A stretch of DNA of 64,000 nucleotides from Hexactinellida sp. DTS-2022 (Eukaryota; Porifera; Hexactinellida): assembly GCA_028753945.1 (NCBI GenBank), contig JAPNXP010000001.1, positions 10,034,501 through 10,098,500 of the forward strand, written 5' to 3'. Position 1 is the stretch's first letter. Each line of letters begins with the position of its first letter. A program made the translations under genes and the position numbers. Shown one piece after another: positions 2,446 through 46,654 of this stretch. The notes below the pieces were generated by a model. It was not told the origin of the DNA. It saw nothing but the letters and a program-made list of their open reading frames with translations, and did no database searches.

Positions 2446-2694
2446 GTGGCCAAAATCGATATGTTCGAGAGTCCTGTCGGATGTCAGAAATTATTCGACA
2501 CATTAGCTGACAAACTTGCAACCTTTATTAGCGCCAAGAAACAGCTCTACTCCGGACAGGAGGCTAGTCCCCTCAGCGATATCGCTACAAAGCTACAAAG
2601 CTCTTTCAAATTTTATGAAAAATTGTTGAGTCTTAAAACCGTACACGGCCCGCCATATTTTTTAGAAATATGTGGAATATTAAACTCGCTCTAA
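2446..2694 (+). CDS. Unrecognised 82-aa ORF, doubtful
   Basis: Open frame of 82 codons with ordinary amino-acid composition (no low-complexity run) and a stop at 2692-2694. I recognise no family. The upstream bases 2236-2436 are also open but are microsatellite. It may be a fragment of an old gene or transposon ORF; no splice sites or neighbour support it. Confidence 0.2.
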   Translation: MAKIDMFESPVGCQKLFDTLADKLATFISAKKQLYSGQEASPLSDIATKLQSSFKFYEKLLSLKTVHGPPYFLEICGILNSL

Positions 2695-3952
2695 CTTTTA
2701 TGTTATAAATAATTGGGTTTAGGTAATTGGCACATATATTTATATATATCTTCTATTTGGATTTTCACCCATCTGAATATTTTTTTATCATCAAACTAAT
2801 CCAATTATAACGTAACTTGTGAAAACGAAAAACCCCTTAATTCAGCGAATAATTCACTTTTATAATATTTTTTTGAATGAATATATAGAACGTCGTTCAA
2901 TGTTTGTTTGGTGATATTATATCATGCCATTCAGATATATGTTGCAGGCCATATGCGTTTCCAGGCGAAACGCGTTTCGCCTAGGCCAAACGCGTTTCGC
3001 CTGAGAAAAGACGCCAAACGCGTTTCGCCTAGGCCAATCGCGTTTCCATTTTAATATAATCCTCATGGGTGTCTATTATTAGATATTGAAATCACTATAT
3101 GCTATTTATCGTTGATGTGGTAATTAGAGGCTATTATTAAGCAGTTAATTAAGATCATCCAAGCTCTTCCTTTTCATTCATACACGTATTTAATTATTAT
3201 TTATTTATACGAATTAACCTAACCTTCGTTATAGTATAGTATTTTATTATTTTAATTCATTATTAATTAAGGATCAATACAATTTACACAAATTTTAATA
3301 CTGAGTACTGTGAGTAGCGAATTTTTATATCTAAGTGGCCGATGTGACTTATTTGACTTATGTAGCATTACTATTACATACTGACAACTAATTTTAAGTG
3401 TTGCATATCATCCCAATATTATACATTTCTATCACTTTAGTCTTTGTTTAGTAACTATGTTTTTCCTCCATCAAAAATGCCACGGAAAATGGACTTAGAG
3501 AGATGGCATAAGATGATGCTAGTGAAATAGATTTGTAAGTAATATATGTAGTTATTGTAGCGATTCTATAGTTTTCAACATGATACTGTGCAGGCTTTCA
3601 TCCAGGAAAAATTACCCCGCTCCTAGATTTTGTTAGAGCTCGTTCAGTTTTCATTTAGTACGCCTAGATTAGTCAACTTGTATTAAGTCTATGGGAGGAA
3701 CTCTCGATATTGTACGCCTAGATAAAAATCCTGCCAAATTAAGCTCCTTTGGGCGCACGCAGCACGCCTGGATAACACCCTGATACTGTGTCAGCTGTTA
3801 GGATATGGGATAATTGCTGTCGGGAGGACATCTGTGTTTGTTATTCGCATTGTATTAAAGCGTTAGGAGAATAGAAACCGAATTTAAATTGGAGATATAA
3901 CTAACTTCCAAAAGTTAAATAAGGTAAACAAGTACAGTCAGCTGCAGTATTC

Positions 3953-4045
3953 ACTAAGATCGATCTTAACTAAGATCGGTCTTAAGACTTAAGATCGACC
4001 TTAAGACTTAAGATCGATCTTAAGATTAATCAACTTAGTAAATAT
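3953..4045. repeat. Array of AAGATCGATCTTAA palindromes inside composite copy 1
   Basis: Starts TATTCACTAAGA and ends in a related inverse, enclosing four variants of the self-complementary AAGATCGATCTT word. The same border word TATTCACTAAGA opens the MITE at 10341-10946, so this is probably a mini-element of that family. Repeated in composite copy 2 at ~13687-13787. Confidence 0.6.
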
Positions 4046-4363
4046 ATATTGTCGACTGAATGAACTCTGAGGCGGTTTCCTATTTATGAGACAGTCCGTA
4101 ACTTATACAACATAATGCTATCATAGATTACACCAAACAATCTATATTTTGCACATGCTATTATAAACGAAGATAGGAGGAATATTCTGGGCTAGCCCAG
4201 TTTAACCCCTGGGGTACAAACTAGGCTAGGGCTAGTTATACACCGGGTATATTCTGGTGGGGGTATAATCTGGGATGCTACACAGGGCGATGATCCGCTT
4301 TGAATCATGGTTGCGTTAGTTGTGTATCCAGAACACAGCTATTAGATAGGTCTCATAGTACAC

Positions 4364-5766
4364 CAGTGGCGTAGCCAGACCTTGAGGTCAACCTGGGCAC
4401 ACACATGGGGCACTCACCCATGCGTATCCAGAAGAAAATCTAGGGGAGTCAAAATTTTATCGCAGCGAGCGTAGCGAGCGATCTAGAGTGGGCTTGGGGG
4501 TGTGACCCTAACCCCCCGTAAAATCTTTCATAGAGTTTATGTGAAAAACCAGGGCATTATTGTTCTTGCTGCTACTAGTCATACAATCATTCATAATAAT
4601 AATAATAATAATAATAATAATAGGGGATACGGCATCCCATACAACAAAGTATTTTAACTATAATATTATATAATACTAGCGTACAACGCTTGCTCGGTCG
4701 CTTCGACACCTCTAATTTCCACAGAGCAACCGCTTCACGGTTGTTCTGTGGTACTAATCTCAACAATTCTCGTAGATAGTATGCCATTGTTCTAGATACA
4801 ATAATTACCTTCCATTATTAAGCACAATCTCATACAGGCTCATAGCAAGGAAATTATTATTGGTGCGGCGAAGTGACGTCGAGTTATTGAATCTCAGTTT
4901 GACTCAAAATGGTACCCGAATATTGATGCGGCTTTCTAAAATATTGTTGCAGTCAAGGCCACACCTGCCGCACCTGCTCCTGCAGGCAAGGCTGGATTCG
5001 GTTAACGGTTAGAGATTTTATTAACCAGTTAGCCGGTCTGTTGAATATCAGCAGAGTTATTGGGAAATTAATGTATAAAGTATTAAATCTTTTTGAATTT
5101 TATCAGAATATGTAGTCCAAAATCTATTCTCATCACCACTTATAAATTTTCTTAGAAAACATTGATTTAAATTTACCTAAAGCACGAAATGTATCAGTTA
5201 TTATACTTATGCGGTTATACTATATACAGCTGAGCCTGAGCTGAGTCTTATTCTGCAGTATAATCAAAATTTATAAAGGATTTATAGTATTGAGTAGGAT
5301 GGGCGGTTTACCAGTTAACCGTGGCGAGAAATCGAATTGTAACCGTAGCCTCATCGGTTAACCAACCCCACCCTTGTGCGAGCCTTTAGCTAATTGTATG
5401 ATTTCATTCGACAGCAAATCTATAATTAAAATTCAGAATTTATCGGCGGCGGACGAATACTTTTGGTAGGGCACTGTACATAGTTCGGATAATAGAGGTT
5501 GCACACTTTTGAAAAGAAAAGCTCGAGAAAGTATGAGATTAATTAGATTTTGAACGAGAGTATTTGGTTTGAACAATAATAGGACAGTAAAGTAACGGTA
5601 TCCACGAAGAATATGTTTCCTTGTCCTAGATGCGCCTTTGCAGCAGGCCCTGACTATGTATTTCAGCAGCCTCCCAGGATTGAAATCCTGAGCCGGTCGG
5701 GCCCCAAGCCTCAACCGCGCTAACCGGGGCCTGGCCCCGTCTGGCCCCTCCCTGGCTACGCCACTG
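4364..5766. mobile_element. Nested non-autonomous hAT element, copy 1
   Basis: Terminal repeats CAGTGGCGTAGCCAG and CTGGCTACGCCACTG. Flanks are TAGTACAC and TTGTACAC, an 8-bp target duplication with one mismatch, diagnostic of hAT. It contains a (TAA)n run at 4592-4622 and a further CAAGG...CCTTG bounded insert (~4984-5373). Open frames at 4587-4787 and 5433-5774 on the minus strand are translations of microsatellite and TIR sequence, not genes. Confidence 0.85.
4984..5373. mobile_element. MITE nested within the hAT insert (CAAGG ends)
   Basis: Left end CAAGGCTGGATTCGGTTAAC and right end GTTAACCAACCCCACCCTTG form an imperfect ~20 bp inverted repeat. A related end is at ~19545-19583 (GGTTAACCGAATCCAGCCTTG). 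No clean 8-bp duplication was seen, so the call is tentative. Same arrangement in composite copy 2 (~14810-15200). Confidence 0.45.
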
Positions 5767-6431
5767 TTGTACACCCATTAAATGTCATACTGTTGACAAA
5801 GAAATTACTTGAGGAGACACCTTACAATAAATATTCCTACAATTAGTTTTTAACTTAGTCACTTTAAATTTGTGCCACCTGTGCCACAAGTGGAACATGG
5901 TAGGAATATGCAGGCCACTTTTGAAATGTCGACGGCCCCAATTGCCCCAAACATTTAGCATAACAAGCAATCAACCAAACTTGGAAAATTAATAAGTTAA
6001 TAAGTCACATAAGATACTAATCACAAAATCGGCCACTTAGATATAAAAATTCGCTACTCACAGTACTCAGTATTAAAATTTGTGTAAATTGTATTGATCC
6101 TTAATTAATAATGAATTATAATAATAAAATACTATACTATAACGAAGGTTAGGTTAATTCGTATAAATAAATAATAATTAAATACGTGTATGAATGAAAA
6201 GGAAGAGCTTGGATGATCTTAATTAACTGCTTAATAATAGCCTCTAATTACCACATCAACGATAAATAGCATATAGTGATTTCAATATCTAATAATAGAC
6301 ACCCATGAGGATTATATTAAAATGGAAACGCGATTGGCCTAGGCGAAACGCGTTTGGCGTCTTTTCTCAGGCGAAACGCGTTTGGCCTAGGCGAAACGCG
6401 TTTCGCCTGGAAACTCATTTGGCCTGCAACA

Positions 6432-7360
6432 TATACATTTCCAAATAATAGGAAAAGTCTGAAAGTATTATTTTGATTTTGAATCTCTCCATTGTGATCC
6501 TTGGTTCATAATCCCCTTTTATATCATCCATGGTTTAAATTTTCGCTAGTGCCCTCGAAAAAATTTAGTTCTAAAAATTTTTATAGTTGCATTCTTATTG
6601 TACGTGTTCTGATCTGTAAGAAAATACAATTTTTATTTCTATTTCTAGAAAATTCACTTGGCTCTAAGGCCTTTCATGTCCACCTTATTTGGATTTTGTA
6701 TGATAATTCTGAATAATTTACTCTAGATTATATATATATCCTTCATTCATTCAGATATGGTTTCTAAAATATTTTTGTGATAATTATAACTTGCTTTTTT
6801 GAAATTCGTGTTCAGCATAATTGTTAACCTATCATATCCGTAAAGCTAACTTCTAGTTTTATTTTGAATTTTCATTAATTTACTAGCGCGCTTCGCTTGC
6901 TATGTCGCTTCGCACCAGAACACAACCACACACCAACCGCTTCGCGGTTGGTGTGTGGTTTATACTCCTAATATTGATTATAAAGCGTAAATAGGCCTAA
7001 ATAATCGAATTTAACAATGTGTAATTTTAATGATTACGTCATCATGCAATAATGAGTAAGCATATTGGTGATCGGTGTGACCAACGTGTCCGCATCATTA
7101 ATGTCTATGTTCTATTAAATTTTCAGATTTTTATCTCTTAGAGGCGCGAATTATGTGCGATTAATTAAGTGACTTTTCAGGGTTCTCGAAATGTGACAAT
7201 GACGTCATAACTTATCGAGGTGTGAGAAATTTTGAGTGGAAACCTCAAGTTGTTGGCGGGTGCCAAAAGTTACCCCTATATGCCAAAAATCTCATTTGGA
7301 AACAGTCCAGTTTCTTCAATCAACTCGGAACATACAAACAAATATATATATATACACATA
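6432..7360. other. AT-rich intergenic stretch with hairpin run; no gene
   Basis: No credible coding region. About 6779-6885 resembles the tandem-repeat monomer at 63660-64000 (shared CGTGTTCAGCAT, GCTAACTTCTAG and TTTTCATTAATTT words). It is followed by short GC-rich hairpins at 6889-6960. Confidence 0.6.
6924..6960. repeat. Perfect 17-bp stem, 3-nt loop hairpin
   Basis: AACCACACACCAACCGC, loop TTC, then its exact reverse complement. Directly upstream (6889-6922) are two imperfect small hairpins also closed by TTC. Similar triloop hairpins recur at 4675-4755 and 63527-63600. Confidence 0.85.
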
Positions 7361-7510
7361 CAGTGTACTCCGCATAATTGGGACACCGGTTAATTGGGAC
7401 AACTCCGCAAGAACCGAATCATTTCCATAGAAGCTAATACTAAAAATTTCGGTTAATCGGGACAAACTCCGCTTAATTGGGACAAACTCAACAAATTGGG
7501 TTCAAAATTG
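7361..7510. mobile_element. pogo/Tigger-like element end
   Basis: CAGTGTACTCCGCATAATTG followed by several GGTTAATTGGGACA-like words, matching the style of pogo/Tigger termini, which start CAGT and carry repeated AATTGGGAC. The other end was not located. 7511-7956 holds a CA-rich run and no gene. Confidence 0.5.
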
Positions 7511-7964
7511 TGCTCACTTATAATAGAAAATTAATATTGATCAAAAAATTGTAATAATCTTGGTCAATTCGGTCACTCTAATACATTCCGGACAAACAAA
7601 CAAACACACACACAACAATCGAGATTTAATAATATAGATATAATATACTGTACATACTTATACCGGTTACCTGGCCTAATAATATTATAACATTTATACG
7701 ATCAGCAAACCTCAATACATTATTTACGGGTTACCTATTCGAATAGTATTCTAATATTGAATAGTATTGTGTTTATTCGGTCAGGTACCCCCACGCCCCC
7801 CCCCCCAGAAAATCATAATATTTATTGAGTTAGCCGTTCAAAATTTTGATTATATTTTTTCGGTCAACTAAAAGTTTTTCCCGGACGCACTAAAAATTTA
7901 TTTATCGACTTTGCACATCATCAAGCTTGGATGGTTGCACCTAAATAAATTGCATGGCCGCTAT

Positions 7965-8263
7965 CAGTGCTCGACAAATCTGGTGGTTTGGTGGCGCTAG
8001 CCACCAAAAATCTGATTTAAGCCACCAAATTTTGCCTTTGGTGGCTTAACTAATCTACCATATATTGTGGATTATTGACTTTATGTACATTATATGTTTC
8101 GTTGCATCATTTGTTATTAACATTAGTGTTGTTTTACGGCATCAAAACTTTGTTAAGTCATCAGTGGTTTGCTAAACCGGCCGTTGTTTATTCTTTAGCC
8201 ACCAGAAAAAGTGAGGTGGTGGCTTAATTAGCCACCATCAAAATTTTATTTTGTCGAGCACTG
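7965..8263. mobile_element. hAT MITE (CAGTGCTCGAC family), copy 1
   Basis: 299 bp, TIRs CAGTGCTCGACAAA and TTTTGTCGAGCACTG, perfect 8-bp target duplication GCCGCTAT (7957-7964 and 8264-8271). Subterminal GGTGGCTAA/TTAGCCACC words occur in both orientations. Other copies: 10213-11056 and a decayed one at 37580-37866. Confidence 0.95.
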
Positions 8264-8307
8264 GCCGCTATACTCAATCTTATTACATTATCTCTACAAC
8301 AAATATT

Positions 8308-8363
8308 TGCTGTTTCGACCTTTCTAGGTCTCATCAGCAGTGTAGTAACAACACCGGACAGCA
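8308..8363 (-). ncRNA. Hammerhead ribozyme, helix-III-open form, self-cleaving motif
   Basis: On the minus strand this 56-nt stretch holds every element of the hammerhead fold: helix III strand TGCTGT, cleavage-site base C17 (GUC triplet, cut predicted between 8357 and 8356), helix I CGGTGT/ACACTG (one G-U pair) with a 7-nt loop, core CTGATGA, helix II GACCT/AGGTC with loop AGAA, core GAA, and the returning helix III strand ACAGCA. All core bases C3-A9, G12-A14, A15.1-U16.1 are present. It would cut its own transcript. Hammerheads are known in Penelope-like elements and retrozymes; which host element this one belongs to is unresolved. It lies downstream, in minus sense, of the small ORF at 8469-8744. 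Confidence 0.88.
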
Positions 8364-8468
8364 CTTTACAACACAAACATTGTGTAGTATTCTGAGATCG
8401 GGATCGAAATCCGTCATAGTGAATACTACACCACAAGTAACTAACACATAACTAGACAACAGTGGAAC

Positions 8469-8744
8469 TCACGTCCGGGTGCTGTCGCTGCCCTTCCCTG
8501 TGTCCAGGGTGCCGACTCCTAGCGATAGGATTTCTGCGGTCTGGGCTTCTAACCGCATGTCGTTGAGAAGCTTATTCTGGAGCCGTATTTGACGGGCCTG
8601 TACTCGGATGGCTCTTCTCCTCTGTCGGGCCTCACCGCGGGCGAGAGCTTTAGCCGCAGTGATGGCATCATGGAGCACCCTTAGTGTGTCCGAATTATTA
8701 GTCAGCCTGACTAGTCGCTGCAGATCAATTATATGCGCTTGCAT
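8469..8744 (-). CDS. Small basic, helix-prone ORF beside the hammerhead; unrecognised
   Basis: 91 codons from ATG at 8744. Notably GC-rich against its AT-rich surroundings and rich in Arg, Leu, Gln and Ala (ARQRRRAIRVQARQIRLQNK), suggesting a basic coiled coil. No family recognised. Near the 3' end GACGTGAGT makes a good splice donor, so it may be the first coding exon of a longer gene or of a retroelement. The same-strand hammerhead lies 105 bp downstream. It could be a remnant of a Penelope-like or retrozyme-carrying element, but no GIY-YIG or RT motif is visible. Confidence 0.4.
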   Translation of the reverse strand: MQAHIIDLQRLVRLTNNSDTLRVLHDAITAAKALARGEARQRRRAIRVQARQIRLQNKLLNDMRLEAQTAEILSLGVGTLDTGKGSDSTRT

Positions 8745-9009
8745 AGTGTTTATGAATTTTCTAATCGGCTTGATTATATATATTGCCGAATACTAGTCAA
8801 TGTGGGATGTCAAGAAATACCTATTTCTGGCAACTGAGTCTCAACACGTGATAACACGTATTTGATAAATATTATAAACGAGTTAGGAATTCAAATTCCA
8901 TATCATAATAATAATATTCCATTGAGCACGATAAACGCTTTTTCTGAATGTTTTATATCTATGTTACCACCTCCCATAATTATTTTTTATATATATCTGG
9001 TTTGGGACT

Positions 9010-9250
9010 TTACTTCCTTCTATCCAACAAATGAATCTCAGGGGAAACAAATGAGCCTTAAGGGAAACAAATGAGTTAAGAGGAAACAAATGAGAGTAAT
9101 TAAAAACAAAGTAGCCTAAGGTGCAACAAATGAACATCAGGAAAAACAAATGAGAGTAATTATAAACAAAGTAGCTCAACGTGCAACAAATGAACCTCAG
9201 GGCAGTCAGGGGATACAAATGAACCTGAGGGGCTACAAATGAGAGTGAAC
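9010..9250. repeat. Degenerate tandem repeat of AAACAAATGA words
   Basis: About eleven AACAAATGA-type words separated by variable 10-20 bp spacers. A larger unit of ~60 bp (GAGAGTAATTA, AAACAAAGTAG, GTGCAACAAATGAAC) is present twice. The minus-strand open frame across it is an artefact of the repeat. Confidence 0.7.
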
Positions 9251-9317
9251 CTGAGTCCCTAAATATGAATTCCCATTTCCCATTCGCCAATAATAAATTT
9301 CATATGTATAAAACTAA

Positions 9318-9495
9318 CTAATCTCGAGATTTTAACAATATTACCAATTAATAGAAAGGTGTGAAAATCGCATAACTTACATTCCACAAATAAAATATGA
9401 TTTCCTGTACGAAAATGTAACAATACTGTTTTAGGCCTACGCTAATTTTACCGTAAAACGAAGTTTACAGTCCCTATATTAAAGAAGTCCCTGGG
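9318..9495. repeat. Dispersed repeat, copy 1
   Basis: Shares long blocks with 19277-19535: GAGATTTTAACAATATTACC, ATCGCATAACTTACA and a final block TTTACAGTCCCTATATTA. Copy 2 has ~80 bp extra. Downstream at ~9536-9551 is a poly-C run. Confidence 0.7.
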
Positions 9496-10212
9496 AATAT
9501 CATTAGCCCTTCACCATTCTGGGGCGGTGCAGTTGCCCCCCCCCCCCCCCACCCTTTCGGTGGCCCCAGTCATAATAAATCAGCGTCCTGTTACATGTGG
9601 CAATTAAAATATTACTAAATAACTAATTGACGCACTAGTTGTCCACTGGTCATAGAATATGATGCCATCTTGGATATCTTTTATTTCCGGGACAATTCGG
9701 TTTTCCATTAAATATTATGGTCAAAGATAATAATATGTAATTCAATGTTGCTATAACCAGCTTGCATTCTTTGTCATTGAAACCTAATTTTCCTCCCGTT
9801 CGATGCATTGATTTCCATCGACTCTTCCAAATTCAAACGGGAATACTCAATTGTTTTGCGAGTCTTGAGGAAAGCACGATTGTATATTCTCTACTCTAGC
9901 AGCTATAGTTGGACATATGAGAGTCAATAAGTCGGGACGTAACGGACAAACAGTCACCGAGAAACAATCCATTTACAATTGGTAAATCCTTGTGGAAATT
10001 TTATGGTTTACTCCCAATTGTCTCAAATAAATGAATCATATTTTCTGGTCATTTCTCAACAAGATCAATGAACTTCGAATTATCATCACATATTTACTGG
10101 ATATTTATCGAGTGTTCATTCTTCATGTCTACTAATATTTCTTCATTACCTGTAGGTGCAACGATTTGTACATAGGTACCATCGATGCAGCCTAGTACCG
10201 AAGTAAATTCAG

Positions 10213-12136: not shown

Positions 12137-12654
12137 ACAGTCCATTCCTGTATACTACAGGGATTTGCGGACAGGGATGTATTAAATTTGTATCTGCATT
12201 GCTAGTTTGGAAAAATTATTGATTGGAGCCTGTACAGGGAAATGACTCAAATGATTGGCAAGTATGAATTCATTAAATTGAATTTATAGCATCAATGAGG
12301 GGCATTGCCCCCCTAAAGATTGTCTTTCAACACTATTAAAATCTTAAATACTGCCGGTGTTGATTCTGCATATTGAGTTTTTAATTAAATGATAGTTAGC
12401 TAAACTTAGTGCAAACTAAGTAAATACTTAGTTTTGGATGAATACTTAGTTTCTATTTATGTAGATTATTTGGCAAACTTGAGAATACTTTATTAACGAA
12501 AAGTAAGTAAAAGTCCATTAAAATAAAGAACTTGTTTATCATCTCGGTCCGTCCCTAGTTTTTACCCTCCGTCCGGATATATATTATTATTATCTTATTA
12601 ACATAATTGTACAAAATATTAGCTATAAAAGTACACCTAATGTATCAATATATA

Positions 12655-16261
<3,607 letters not shown>

Positions 16262-16384
16262 TATACATACGTATAAAAGTTTGGTATTAGTATAGGGCTG
16301 AAACGAAATTATCAAATATTCATTCGAAATGATTGAACAAATATTAGATTGAAACGGATATTATTTTGTTTTTATTGTATACAT

Positions 16385-32800: not shown

Positions 32801-35609
32801 TAGTGCAGGTTGACAAGAATGAAGTTCAGGAAATAAAAGTACTGCCCAGTAAGTGGGCTTATGCACATCTAATCTAATCTTAATCTAATTTTAAGGTTTG
32901 TAACAGGAGCACGGGGGAAGTTTTTTGTGGTCTTCCCAATGACTGTCCAGTCTACCCTTGAATGTGGATATAGACGGAGCTGTAACAATTTCATTTGGTA
33001 GTTTGTTCCAAATACTCACAATTCTTTCAGTGAAAAAGTTACTCCTTATTCTTGTGTTAGGCGGCCGGTTTGAAGGTGTTAATAAAGTTAGAGAATTACC
33101 ACGGAGATAACCGCTTAAAGGATTGAATTGATTCGGTTGACTAAACTTAATGCCGGATGTGCCATTTATGTATTTCCACATAAGAATTAAGTCACCACGT
33201 TTCCTTCTTATTTCTAGACAAGTTAACCCTAATAATTCCAGTCTAACACGGTAGGGAAGATGTTTCATGCCCTGGACACATTTAGTGGCTCTCCGTTGGA
33301 TTTTTTCTAGTTTCTGTATATCTTTAATGAGGAAGGGTGACCAGATCTGACTAGCGTATTCGAGTTTTGGACGAATCAGAGATCTATAGACTATTTTAAA
33401 TATATTTGGCGTTATGCAGGCAAAAGTCTGCTTAACTAAACCCAATGCTCTATTTCCTTCAAGTGATATTTTAGCAATATGCGCTGTGAAGGTGAGCTGG
33501 TCATCCATCAATACACCCATATCTTTTATTAGTGAAGTCTGGTGAAGAGTAATTGTGTCGATAGAGTATGAGTAATTTTGGTGAAGTCTTTTACCAAGGT
33601 GAAGTAAGTTACATTTATCCATATTGATAGACATATAATTTCTTTGGGACCAATTCAGTAGTGAGGTTAATGTAGATTCGAGTTTAAGGCAGTTGTTATC
33701 CAAGTGCGCATCAGTATAATACTTGGTGTCATCAGCAAAGGAAGAAATAAATACACTGTTATCAAGCGGAGGTTTGCTATATAAGGATTTAGATGGGATG
33801 TCAAATGTGTATATTAAGAAAAGGATGGGGCCCTAGAACTGATCCTTGTGGAATTCCACTAGTTAAAGTAGACCATTTAGAAAGAGTTTCCTGTAATTTA
33901 ACTCTCTGTTTCCTGTTTATCAGAAAACATTCAAGCCAGTGAAAAAGTTTACCTCTTATGCCTACAGAATCTAGTTTATCCAAGAGAATACTATGCTGTA
34001 CCTTGTCAAAGGCCTTTTCGAAGTCAATATAGACAATATCTACATCTAACTTGTTATCCAGGGATAATGTCCAATTTTCCAGGGCTTCTAGTAGGTTAGA
34101 CACAGTTGATCTGCCGGGAACAAACCCATGTTGGTCAGGATGGATAATGTCATTCTTTATCAGATGGTCAACAATGTGTGGTTTAATGATAGATTCTAAT
34201 ATCTTTATTATTGCTGAAGTGATTGAAATGGGCCTGAAATTCTTTGCATGCTGCTTGGAAAGTTTTTTATGAATTGGAATTATGTAAGCATTCTTCCAGT
34301 CACTAGGTAGTACACCTGTTAGGATACTTTTTGAAAACAGGATCGTTAGTAGGATAGAAAAATGATGGGAGAACATTTTCAGTAATCTGGGATGTATATT
34401 ATCAGGACCTGGTGATTTAGAAGTATCTAAAAGTTCCAATTTCTGAAGTAGTATCTGTTCTGTGATTATTACATCGTCCAGTGATGTTAGAACTCGAGGA
34501 AGAGTGTTTAGGTAATTCCCACGAGCTACAGGTCTGTTATAGACTGTTTCAAAATGTTTAATAAAAGTATCTGCCGTTTCTGAGTCAGTAACAGTTAGGT
34601 TTCCAGAATCTTTAAGTAAAGATATAGCAGAAGTATTGGAATTTCTGTATTGTTTGGCATGTTTAAAGAACTTGCGGACCGAAGAGGGGGATTTAAAATC
34701 GTTTACAAGTTGATTCTCATAATCCAGTCTCAATTTTTTTGAAAGTTTAGATACTGTATCCCTTGTTTTCTTATATGCGGATAAACTGTGTAGATTTGGA
34801 CTATTTCTATACTTGGACCAACAAGAAAATTTCTCTGTCAGAGCAAGCTTGAAGGTTATTGATCTTAAATATGATGGTTTTACGTCTTTCCGATTAGTAG
34901 TAGGGACTAGGGAAAGCAGACGAGAGTATAGATCTAAAAATTTATTCCATAATGTATCTAAAGAATGAGCAAGTGTGAAGGCTGGTAGCGAGTCCTTGAA
35001 AAGTTGTTCAGCTAGGAACATGTCTATTTTGTGGTATAGGTACACTTTTCCTAGTCTTTTCGGAACTGCGGTGTTGTAGTTGAAGAAGATAACATCGTGG
35101 TCGCATCCACTGAGAGGAGGTCTATATACTAGTTTGCTGACCTGATACTGATTATTTGTAAATACTAAATCCAGTATGGCTTTATAGGAAGCAGTATTAA
35201 AAATAGGTTGAAACTTCTTACGTGTAGGTTCGGTAATATGTTGATAGAGGAATAGGTCATCAATAGCATTTAAGAATTCAGTTGCAACCGATTGATTTTG
35301 GCAACCAGAAGCTAGGTGAGAGGACCAATCAATCCCGGGTAGATTTAAGTCACCCAATAGAATAACATTTTTACCTTCAAAGGTTTTGATGTAATCGCAT
35401 AATAATTTTGTATCTTGGGTCGAAGAGTTTGGAGGTCGATACACTAAACAAATGTAGGTAGACTTGATGAATTCCACCTTGATGACTAATATGTTAATAC
35501 GGTTAAATGATTTAGATTCTATCGGATAGTGCTTTATTGTCATTTTGTCATCTATGTAAAGCGCTACACCTCCTCCTCTATAGTCTTCTCTTGAGCAGAA
35601 AAAGCCTAC
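32759..35609 (-). mobile_element. CR1/L2-like non-LTR retrotransposon, 5' truncated
   Basis: Minus-strand insertion within the hAT-like repeat. Its 3' end is an (ATT)n run (32759-32803 on the plus strand as AAT), as in CR1/L2-type tails. The 5' end stops abruptly inside the endonuclease at ~35609, next to a short poly-A run. This is typical target-primed insertion with 5' truncation. Confidence 0.85.
32891..35605 (-). pseudogene. Endonuclease-reverse transcriptase ORF2, one frameshift
   Basis: An APE-type endonuclease is partly present (YRGGGVALYIDD upstream of the first ATG at 35543; GDLNLPGIDW; DLVFTN; SGCDHDVIFF). The reverse transcriptase follows: SPGPDNIHPRLLK, FRPISIT, HGFVPGRST, VYIDFEKAFD, SGIPQGSVLGP, FADDTK. 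The frame changes near 33830 at a run of C after GSVLGP, consistent with a single added base; the rest (32891-33703) is the RT thumb and C-terminus (KLEKIQRRATK, RRKRGDLILMWK). No RNase H. It would copy element RNA at a nicked target; this copy is inactive because of the truncation and shift. Confidence 0.9.
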
Positions 35610-43309: not shown

Positions 43310-46300
43310 ATGGATATCTCTGAATTAACTGCGTTGACAGAGTTATCGAATGAGTTAACAAATGGTGACGTGAAGCAAATACGAAATGAAATTGGAATAC
43401 CAGAAGCATTGTGTGAAGATATGTCGCAAGTTACGAAGTTTCTTTTTGCAATCAAAAGATGGACTGAACGAAAACCGTTCCTTTTTTATTTGGCCCTAAA
43501 GCGTGTGAGGCCTGAATTAACGGAAAAAGCATGTAAAGTTCAATGGCTTTGTAATTCCTCGCCCGATGGGACTGAATTCCAAGAAGAAGAAAAGTTATCC
43601 ATTAAAACACTGGTACAACTTTTGAAATCAGAAATAACTAATGTGCAATGGCTACTGATTTACATGACAGTAGCATCTGAAGCAAAGGAAAATGTTAGTT
43701 TTGCAGAAACACTGAGCCTGCTAATGGAGAAAGGTATGGTTAAGAAAGACTTGAGTGCACTTTGTCAAATCATTAAAGGAATCCAGAGGGAGGATGTCGT
43801 GAGAAAACTTGTGGCTTATAAGAATCTATTCTCCCAAATGGATGATGGTGAATTTGAAAATAAATTTAAGCGAGAATTGACAAGTCAAGTCAAAGAAATG
43901 AAACAGTGGGATGCGAATTTAAAGGATTTCATACAAATGCAACACAGCACAGTTCGATAAATGTTAGGAGATGACGTATCGGTTAATCTAGCAGAGGTGT
44001 TCATCGAATTAACAATCCTAAAAGAGAAACCTCGACCCATTAATTTCCAAGATGAAACAACCTACAACGAGATTGCTTATCTCAGAAAGATAGCAAATAA
44101 AGAAGTGACAATACAGCCAGTTGACTTCACAAAAGAATTGACGACATATGAATCTAAAAATCCGGAAATTTGGTGCATCATTGGCAACCCCGGCTGTGGC
44201 AAAACATTCCTGGCGAAGCGAACAGCTCTCAGATTTAGCAGTAACGAACTAACCGAGATTCAATACTCAATTTCAATTCCCTGCCGCAATGAAGAATGGC
44301 ATTCCATGGAGGTAGCAAGAATTCAGGAGGATAAGAAAGTCGACTCGGTATTTATACAAAAATGGATATGTCTGGGATTGCCGGTTGGACCCAGTTGGAC
44401 AAACGATTTAGCGAAGCATTTAAATGAATCGAGTGGAGATGGAGCCCTGTTCATTATTGACGGACTAGATGAGTTTACCAGGAAAGTGCCATTCGAGAAA
44501 ACATTCTTATGTTTGTTGCTGACCCGTCAAACATTGATAAAATCCACTATAATTCTCACGAGTCGCCCCGGGGCATGGACTGACATCTCCTCTGCACACC
44601 AATTGAAAGTTAACAGGTACTATCAGGTGCTTGGGTTCTCGCCAGCCAACAGAGACCTATACTTCGAGAAACAAATACGCAACGAAAAGAAATTGGAGGA
44701 ATGCAAAAGCTTGCTAAAGCGACATGACGAAATGGATCAGCTCTCGTTAATCCCAGTAAATGCGTCCCTTTTCGCAGCTCTATTGAAAGGAGAAGATTCC
44801 ACTCTCATTAACACTCTGACAAACCTCTACTACGAATTAACGCTTTACCTGATAAGGAGAGAATTGGCCCGAACGGGACTTCCAGAATTCACACGAGTGG
44901 AACGCATATCCGATCTCCATGCCGACATACTTGAATGCCTAAGTAAAGTAGGATTCATCGCAATGCTCGGGGTAGCGAACAGAGAACTAACATCGGAGGA
45001 AAACGTGCCTCTAACAATCGGACAAGAGGTATACCCCAGTCAGTGCTTAGGTCTAGCTCATGAGCACTACAGAACTAACTCTGTCGGGTTGATAACTAAG
45101 GTGTGGACATTTGTGCATCTGACCATGCAAGAGTTCGTATCTGCTCACTGGGTTAGCAACACTTCATGGACAAAGCAGTGCTTCAGCACAAGATACATAT
45201 CCCACTCAGTTGATAACTTCTCGCTTTTCAAAATGGTGACGAGATTCCTGTGCGGGCTCGTGACAGAAAAAGCAGCTGTTTTGCTTGTCATTATGTACAG
45301 AAACCTAACCCCGCAACCAATCCCATTGATTGGAATGCCTATTACTTATCAGCTAAAATATCAAAATATATATGGCATGAGTGTGTGGGAAGAATTCACT
45401 AAAATATTTTTCGAATTAATCTCCATTGTATATGAAACAAATTCATTTTCAATAGCTATCTGGTTTAATAACTTCAAACAGTATTTTCCTACTCACATAT
45501 ACCTCTATGTGCAACAAGCAGTTTCTCCTAATGAATGGTTTTGTTTCTGTCAGTCTCTCGAACTTGTTAGTCGAATTCAACTCATTTACATTGACACTAG
45601 TCGCATCAACCCTACTCAATTCAAATCTTTCATAGAGAAAATGAGAATTTGTTCCGTTAATTTGTTGTCATTGCGTTTCGAAAAGAAAGATTCCACTTCA
45701 GTACTATCCTATACTGATACAATGAAAGAGACAGGAATTAAGTTTGACACTAAAATTAGTATTGAACTATCCGACTGTAATTTTAGTGCGGAGACAGGTG
45801 TTAATCTCTTTCTTAAACCAACCAATCAGATTATAGATAGTTTGAGCCTAACTAGGAATGAATATTCACATACAGCACTTCTGGAATTAACAAATAAATT
45901 CTCTGCGATTCAATGCCTATGTGTTGAGGAATTAATTACTAATTACGACACTATGGTACCAGCTCTGTGTCAGGCGACACAATTAAGAGTACTACACCTC
46001 CATAAGATTCCTTCTGAACACATTCCTAGCCTAACAGCTGTGCTACCTCAGTTCTCTAAGCTACAAGAGATTGCATTCAGTAATAACTCACTGCTACCTG
46101 CAATTAGTCATCTGTCCAATCTAACTTATCTACAGATACGAGATACTACAACAGAAGACACAACTCTCTGTGATTATTTGTTAGAGTTTATTAATGGGAA
46201 CAGACACTCATTAAGAGGAATGGTTTTGTTCTATTTGCACAGAATTGGATTGAATAATTGGAGTTCACTTCTCAATTGTTTGGAATTTTGCACTAATTTA

Positions 46301-46654
46301 GTTCAGCTAAAGCTATGGCTCATTACTCTACCATCTAATGACGTCACTCACTGGAGTAGCGCTGTTAAGAAAATGAAGTCTTTAGATGAATTGTTTTTCT
46401 TCGATGTCTCCCTCTATGACACAGGATTATTATCTCTCTGTGAAGGCCTGATATACCATCCTGCTATTAGGAGTCTAGATCTATTCAACTGTGAGCTGAC
46501 TTCTCTATCCTGTGAGCCTCTAACTAACTTAATACCCACTGTCTCACTGCTGGAGAAACTGACAATCTATAGACTATCTGAACCTGACAGAGATCATATC
46601 TCATTGCTCAAGGAAACAGCTGATGAGTTTGGTATTGAGTTTAAGTTAGATTAA
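43310..46654 (+). CDS. NLR-type receptor: tandem death-fold, NACHT, LRR-like; one in-frame stop
   Basis: Two open frames in the same reading frame, 43310-43957 (216 aa) and 43961-46654 (897 aa), are separated only by TAA at 43958-43960 followed immediately by ATG. The first looks like two tandem death-effector-type folds (LTELSNELTNGDVKQIRN; LVQLLKSEITNVQWLL then DLSALCQIIKGIQREDVVRK). The second has Walker A GNPGCGKT (residues 75-82), Walker B ALFIIDGLDEF, sensor TIILTSRPGAW, then a helical region and LRR-like repeats from ~560 to the end (LRSLDLFNCELTSLSCEPL). NLRs sense microbial or danger signals and oligomerise through NACHT. The 16- and 40-nt introns considered across the stop both break the frame. 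It may be a nonsense allele, readthrough, reinitiation or a sequence error. No introns in the coding part. Confidence 0.85.

Follow-up and report, generated by a model that had tools for sequence, protein, structure and literature searches.

A hammerhead ribozyme behind a small protein gene, in decayed copies of a transposon, is an unexpected setting and raises the question of what effect it would have on the mRNA. Type III hammerheads are self-cutting RNAs mostly known from plants and plant pathogens. The one considered here lies in 64,000 nucleotides of contig JAPNXP010000001.1 of the sponge Hexactinellida sp. DTS-2022, a stretch that we call the window. A first-pass annotation of these letters had reported a complete hammerhead with a GUC cut site on the minus strand, and had assigned it to a small unclassified retroelement that would include or neighbour the open reading frame (ORF) at 8469-8744.

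A Complete Type III Hammerhead Motif in the Window

The presence of the hammerhead was confirmed. When the part of the window from 7000 to 10000 was searched with permissive filters, the Rfam model RF00008 (Hammerhead_3) matched positions 8364-8307 of the minus strand over its full length (1-54), with 44.2 bits and an E-value of 1e-7. The Rfam gathering score of 48.5 bits, which is a curation cut-off and not a structural feature, was not reached, and a search of the whole window at the gathering threshold thus gave no match. The covariance-model check that had been proposed for the motif was positive in E-value and model coverage and fell short in the gathering score.

The three helices could be read in the letters themselves. 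Helix III pairs 8363-8358 with 8313-8308 (6 bp, including A15.1-U16.1), helix I pairs 8356-8351 with 8343-8338 (6 bp, with a 7-nt loop), and helix II pairs 8330-8326 with 8321-8317 (5 bp, with a 4-nt loop). The core strands CUGAUGA (8337-8331) and GAAA (8316-8313) provide all core bases, and the predicted cut falls after the GUC, between C8357 and C8356, which agrees with the 5' end at 8356 that had been predicted earlier. The conserved core, the NUH cut site, the open helix III and the loops on helices I and II are those of a type III hammerhead, which supports the topology with a closed helix I loop described in the first-pass annotation as well as the contrast that it drew to the minimal type I motif of Penelope-like elements. 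The ribozyme is single and not tandem, and neither RF00008 nor a strict descriptor found a hammerhead on the plus strand of this region.

The minimum free energy fold of the bare ribozyme was the hammerhead structure (z -2.34; 4 of 200 shuffles were equally good). The core pattern alone means little, since 2.57 occurrences of the loose form CUGANGA..GAAA are expected by chance in the window. By contrast, the strict descriptor, which requires all three helices, had its single match in the window at 8364-8307 and none in 400 simulated 64-kb strands. We thus consider this segment to be a complete canonical type III hammerhead, for which cleavage is predicted (Table 1).

Table 1. Features of the window, and of the LTR retrozyme-like element found elsewhere in the genome (last line). 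Positions are those of the window unless a locus is named.
Feature	Position	Strand	Basis or details
Type III hammerhead ribozyme	8307..8364	minus	RF00008, strict descriptor, 8 full genome copies
Hairpin 5' of the ribozyme; perfect stem of 11 bp (8431-8421 with 8392-8382)	8382..8431	minus	Sequence, conserved segment, folds
Small ORF, 91 aa	8469..8744	minus	11 matches at 10 loci; dN/dS 0.22-0.35
Conserved ORF leader, with TATA-like stretch at ~8772-8784	8745..8900	minus	Alignment
Right end of piggyBac-like element, terminal CCGTACACGG beside TTAA (TTAAAA here)	2637..2940	minus	93% to L052:6295-6595
Further right-part pieces of piggyBac-like element	6431..6798	minus	Sequence comparison
Main piece of piggyBac-like right half (leader, ORF, hairpin, ribozyme), interrupted by the MITE	7632..9024	minus	blastn to L050-L056
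MITE downstream of the ribozyme, ends CAGTGCTCGACAAA / TTTGTCGAGCACTG	7965..8263	.	Sequence
Later transposon insertion splitting the right part, ~3.5 kb, 408-bp inverted repeats	~2936-6435 (2941..6430 inserted)	.	
Full LTR retrozyme-like element	L064:105-938 (C15:3147900-3148950)		LTR 330 bp, centre 174 bp, LTR 330 bp

The Ribozyme and the Small ORF Form One Unit

In the genome of origin (G000; 112.4 Mb, 18 contigs), we obtained 10 matches to the ribozyme region and 11 matches, at 10 loci, to the small ORF, which together define 11 loci (L050-L060, the last being the window). The full ribozyme is kept at eight of them (L050-L056 and L060); it is missing from L057 and L059, and L058 begins inside it. 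Five of the eight full ribozymes are identical over 58 nt and three carry one change each, GUU for GUC in L050, a helix I G-U pair turned into A-U in L052, both of which still allow the fold, and one broken helix II pair in L056. RF00008 matched seven of the eight at E <= 0.01 (L052 with 31.7 bits) and missed L050 with its GUU. At all eight loci the ORF sequence lies upstream of the ribozyme in the same orientation, and the two form one unit. The first-pass annotation had linked the ribozyme to this very ORF and had made its reading depend on conservation in other genomic copies; both expectations were borne out. The ORF is broken early in L050 and L054, as it is in L057 and L059, and has lost its 3' part in L055 and L056. 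Contig C11 bears 8 of the 11 loci together with many piggyBac matches, and may be a repeat-rich or special chromosome.

The product of the ORF is basic and has 91 residues in the window and 118 in L051. An AlphaFold (AF2) model built from a five-row alignment predicted helices at residues 2-14 and 18-76 (mean pLDDT 82, pTM 0.50). No convincing relatives were found in Pfam, the PDB, phages or viral contigs; the matches to PF15745, PEHE (E 0.04) and PDB entries (E 0.12 upwards) were attributed to chance, given the basic and helical nature of the protein, and a distant-relative search of the same genome with the ORF gave no new locus. The TATA-like stretch in the conserved leader may be part of a promoter.

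A Host Element That Is at Least in Part piggyBac-Like

DNA transposons of the piggyBac type are recognised by a DDE_Tnp_1_7 transposase and by a TTAA at the end. Six of the eight ribozyme-bearing copies lie inside pieces of such a piggyBac-like transposon. Matches to the transposase were found upstream and in the same orientation in five of the eight (L051, L052, L054, L055, and L056) and none at the window copy, and DDE_Tnp_1_7, which we take to be the piggyBac domain, was read in L056 and in a relative, L062. L051, L052, and L054 match each other from the transposase to the right end, and share with L059 the terminal sequence GGCGGGCCGTGTACGG beside TTAA, followed by unrelated DNA. Looking for paired terminal repeats, we recovered the right end with TTAA in these four loci and in the window, and did not locate the left end. 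The host of the unit is thus piggyBac-like, at least in part.

The copy in the window is a decayed relic that has lost its left part and received two insertions (Table 1). The MITE is flanked by an 8-bp duplication, GCCGCTAT, at 7957-7964 and 8264-8271; it has relatives in the window and is absent from the eight other copies that span the insertion place. The inserted transposon with 408-bp inverted repeats has a nearly identical second copy at ~12647-16268. Beyond position 9024 lies a 20-nt minisatellite.

Several further features of the neighbourhood were observed. The right-end piece at 2637-2940 recurs at C1:9909622 and C1:9975468, ~128 and 62 kb away, which suggests local duplication. Two transposase ORFs of the piggyBac kind stand head to head in L061, ~8-15 kb upstream of the ribozyme copy L054, on two 2,070-bp arms that are 100% identical, and similar inverted pairs occur on C5 and C11. 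A giant piggyBac composite was considered; the inverted transposase pairs do exist, but nothing connected them with the ribozyme. Elsewhere in the window, neighbouring ORFs at 43310-46654 carry a DED-like domain (below cut-off) and a NACHT domain, resembling an innate-immunity receptor, and a TRAF zinc finger domain is also present; this set of domains indicates animal DNA.

An Independent Element, and the Retroelement Reading

In L050 and L053, ORF and ribozyme stand together and the 10 kb examined contain no piggyBac piece; the unit may thus not belong to piggyBac. It could instead be a small mobile element in its own right (e.g., an RNA-borne, retrozyme-like one that codes for a protein), which once inserted into a piggyBac-like element and was multiplied together with it from then on; this is possible, if rather doubtful in our judgement. 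L057 and L058 likewise showed no piggyBac piece within 10 kb; remnants of other transposons stand near such copies, namely MULE and FLYWCH (L050), hAT and DUF4371 (L057), and the Pif1 helicase 2B domain (L058), besides a PARP domain (L050). An independent element would also suit L058, which is cut off 5' inside the ribozyme and has a further 3' stretch in common with L053, and L062, in which the transposase frame is open and the 10 kb examined lack the ribozyme region. No empty piggyBac site could be read in L062, the homology of which to L052 extends only to ~L052:3470. Against this reading, pairwise comparison of the copies revealed no LTR, primer-binding site (PBS), tail, target duplication or shared ends of the unit, and there is no second ribozyme per unit. 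The 3' stretch of L053 and L058 was rejected as a defining tail, as pieces of it recur elsewhere as other repeats, and a foldback repeat flanking L050 and L057 (repeat X) was rejected as an LTR, being an inverted repeat of the MITE kind.

The same comparison bears on the small unclassified retroelement proposed earlier, which is not supported: nothing in the window unit shows it. No reverse transcriptase was found in the eight ORFs of at least 120 aa scanned around L050, L053, L057, and L058. Among the eight ORFs scanned of the nine of at least 150 aa in the window, the sole reverse transcriptase (33801-35543) lies 25 kb away and has the LINE-type linkage to an Exo_endo_phos_2 endonuclease. 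The window unit has one ribozyme per copy; neither the LTRs and the target site duplication (TSD) of an LTR retrozyme nor the reverse transcriptase and the minimal type I hammerheads of Penelope-like elements (PLE) were found. Of the interpretation as a whole, the type III topology, the distinction from Penelope and the link to the ORF have thus stood, and the retroelement has not.

Conservation of the Unit

L053 and L057 form a divergent lineage. Compared with the seven other full copies, L053 differed at 35-41% of positions in the first part of the ORF (68/193 to 94/230), at 12-15% in the leader (19/154 to 25/164), at 8-15% in the stretch directly 3' of the ribozyme, and at 0-1 of 58 positions in the ribozyme, which is the least changed part over this deep split. 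In a comparison that left out the copies with early stops (L050, L054, L057, and L059), the ORF of L053 gave dS values of 0.94-1.96 and dN/dS values of 0.22-0.35 against five copies, the rows for L055 and L056 including a few misaligned codons after their deletion. These values between the lineages indicate that the protein was under selection. The tail of the window ORF is closer to L053 (8/92 changes) than to L052 (24/92), so the lineages have recombined, and the high identity of the ribozyme between them could stem from recombination spreading one version.

Among the closer copies, the ribozyme was not clearly more conserved than the neighbouring sequence. Here dN/dS was 0.53-0.68 when L051 and L052 were compared with L055, L056, and the window, and 1.40-1.45 when the window was compared with L055 and L056, which is what decay of the copies would produce. 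In an RNAalifold analysis of seven of the eight full copies, two-sided changes occurred at none of the 41 predicted pairs; the support for the structure thus comes from conservation and not from covariation.

A Possible Self-Cutting Transcript

We tentatively favour the view that the unit, made of the leader, the ORF for a basic helical protein, the hairpin and the hammerhead, and placed in most copies between the piggyBac-like transposase and the right end, gives a self-cutting transcript. From the structure, the copies, the linkage to ORF and piggyBac pieces and the conservation, we infer that the unit would be transcribed in the orientation of the ORF and that the transcript would cut itself ~112 nt after the stop codon. 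The coding part would then end in a 2',3'-cyclic phosphate, lack a poly(A) tail and be separated from any sequence read through into the end of the transposon and the host DNA.

Folding of the ribozyme may depend on the hairpin immediately upstream of it. The 5' arm of this hairpin can alternatively pair with the helix I strand of the ribozyme at 8348-8338: the 8-mer UACUACAC (RNA) occurs both in the 3' arm of the hairpin (8382-8392) and in helix I (8338-8348), and two rival folds are therefore possible. An energy model, which leaves out tertiary contacts and cotranscriptional folding (where the hairpin would form ahead of the ribozyme), favoured a blocked form: the ribozyme fold accounted for 36% for the bare motif and for less than 1% with flanks in all eight copies. 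The hairpin 5' arm is lost in L055 and L056, and since these also remained below 1%, the block is not due to this arm alone, which speaks against a simple switch. A blocked conformation has also been reported for the hammerheads of plant retrozymes (PMC4918200). In its most specific form, the proposal would be that the mRNA of a protein gene in a DNA transposon is ended by its own type III hammerhead, the upstream hairpin choosing between open and blocked states, hence a self-terminating and switchable message in an animal; so far-reaching a version we regard as unlikely.

The ribozyme might instead be a dead relic that worked in the ancestral element, no present copy being transcribed or of consequence. 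The truncated and twice interrupted window copy, the ORF broken early at four loci, the concentration of loci on C11 and the near-neutral pattern among the close copies would all fit, but five of the eight full ribozymes are identical and two of the three changes in the others preserve the fold, and we find this explanation quite improbable.

A relationship to the hepatitis-delta-like circular RNAs, of which the unit would be an integrated relative, comes to mind through the combination of a type III hammerhead with a small basic helical protein, and agents with a small protein and, in some animals, type III hammerheads are in print (PMC7936874). Their known ribozymes occur in the two polarities of a single small circular RNA, with helices I and II that are longer (PMC7936874), whereas here there is one ribozyme of canonical dimensions, the plus strand of the region carries no hammerhead and the protein has no convincing relative in viral contigs; such an origin is highly improbable. 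Finally, that the resemblance to a hammerhead is due to chance has a practically negligible probability, for while the loose core is common and the score lies under the Rfam cut-off, the full descriptor was met in no simulated strand and the motif recurs in eight copies as the part least changed across the deep split.

A Second Type III Family with LTR Retrozyme Anatomy

The RF00008 search of the genome reduced 12,319 loose candidates to 68 scored matches, a lower bound as the window's own copy is absent from the list, with 64 of them over the cut-off; none of 14 control genomes was positive. In the 30 matches examined (L020-L049), the ribozyme lies in a GC-rich stretch. Twenty of these loci could be aligned over ~300 columns; most of the others have little in common with L047 apart from the ribozyme. 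Sequence common to the window neighbourhood and the compared loci of this second family consisted of other repeats and not of the unit. With L047 as query, at least 13 places on 6 contigs were 98-100% identical over ~325 nt (the query included, and the best 40 of 390 candidates being scored), five of them in a single cluster, L063.

Six of the 30 loci (L046, L047, L048, L049, L035, and L028) begin at the first base of the element and run TG...CA, as solo LTRs do. Read from the flanks, 4-bp duplications stand at both ends of the first five (AGTA, GCAT, TTAT, TTAG, and GTGT, respectively); L028 has none directly at its ends. One full element, L064 (Table 1), has a single difference between its LTRs, a TSD (TACT), a GC content of 0.54, and a polypurine stretch, AAAAAGGGAAGGTGA, before the 3' LTR. 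Each LTR carries a hammerhead of 53.7 bits, and the 504 nt between the cut sites are the predicted unit; in the rearranged cluster L063, similar units have their cut sites 486 nt apart. L064 thus shows the hallmarks of LTR retrozymes, that is LTRs of 300-400 bp with a type III hammerhead, a 4-bp TSD, a non-coding centre and a polypurine tract (PPT). Inspection by eye showed no tRNA-Met PBS after the 5' LTR: there is no TGG start, and an inverted repeat lies in this place in L064 and L063.

Plant LTR retrozymes are described with such features and a tRNA-Met PBS, and their centres are longer, 300-600 bp (PMC4918200), compared with 174 bp in L064. Animal repeats with hammerheads are described as lacking PBS and PPT (PMC4918200, PMC7229834) and also LTRs (PMC7229834). 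The sources consulted, PMC4918200 and PMC7229834 among them, describe LTR retrozymes from plants only, and there was no LTR retrozyme from an animal among the matches listed in our literature searches.

The genome holds two type III lineages, which in the loci compared resemble each other in the ribozyme alone. One accompanies a protein gene in copies of a DNA transposon, and the other is built like the LTR retrozymes of plants. If active, the window unit would provide a natural example of a transposon in which mRNA ends are made by a ribozyme, and the second family would mean that LTR retrozymes are not a plant invention, so that their origin becomes testable.

Comparison with Known Hammerheads and Elements

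Genomic type III hammerheads are reported mostly from plants and type I from animals (PMC7229834, PMC7761336, PMC6155905), and eukaryotic hammerheads associated with repeats are overwhelmingly of type I (PMC3088659). Exceptions have been reported: mammalian Clec2 genes have a discontinuous type III hammerhead in their 3' UTR (PMC6155905), and type III forms with longer helices are described from dipterans, from termite genomes and from the delta-like RNAs of a toad and a termite (PMC7936874). The canonical type III form is given as having a helix I of 6 bp with a loop of 6-8 nt and a helix II of typically 4 bp with a loop of 4 nt (PMC7936874).

With plant retrozymes and subviral circular RNAs, the window ribozyme has its type III topology, core and dimensions in common, apart from a helix II of 5 bp; it differs from them in being a single ribozyme behind a protein gene, in an animal genome and without LTR. 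The Clec2 hammerhead is likewise an animal type III form that follows a coding region, but it has a very large helix I, whereas the window form is compact and lies in transposon copies. With piggyBac-type transposons, the host element shares the DDE_Tnp_1_7 transposase and the TTAA at its right end, and differs from them in its extra small gene and ribozyme. We know of no piggyBac element with a hammerhead. None appeared, by title or start of abstract, in a joint literature search (most subscription journals, and bioRxiv preprints, lying outside its coverage), nor was there such a case among the matches listed in further searches; PMC6431247 mentions hammerhead and piggyBac in separate sections. 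Metazoan non-LTR retrozymes and Penelope-like elements also carry hammerheads in animal mobile DNA (PMC7229834, PMC7761336), but those described are of type I and often tandem, whereas the ribozyme of the window is of type III, single, and placed beside an ORF.
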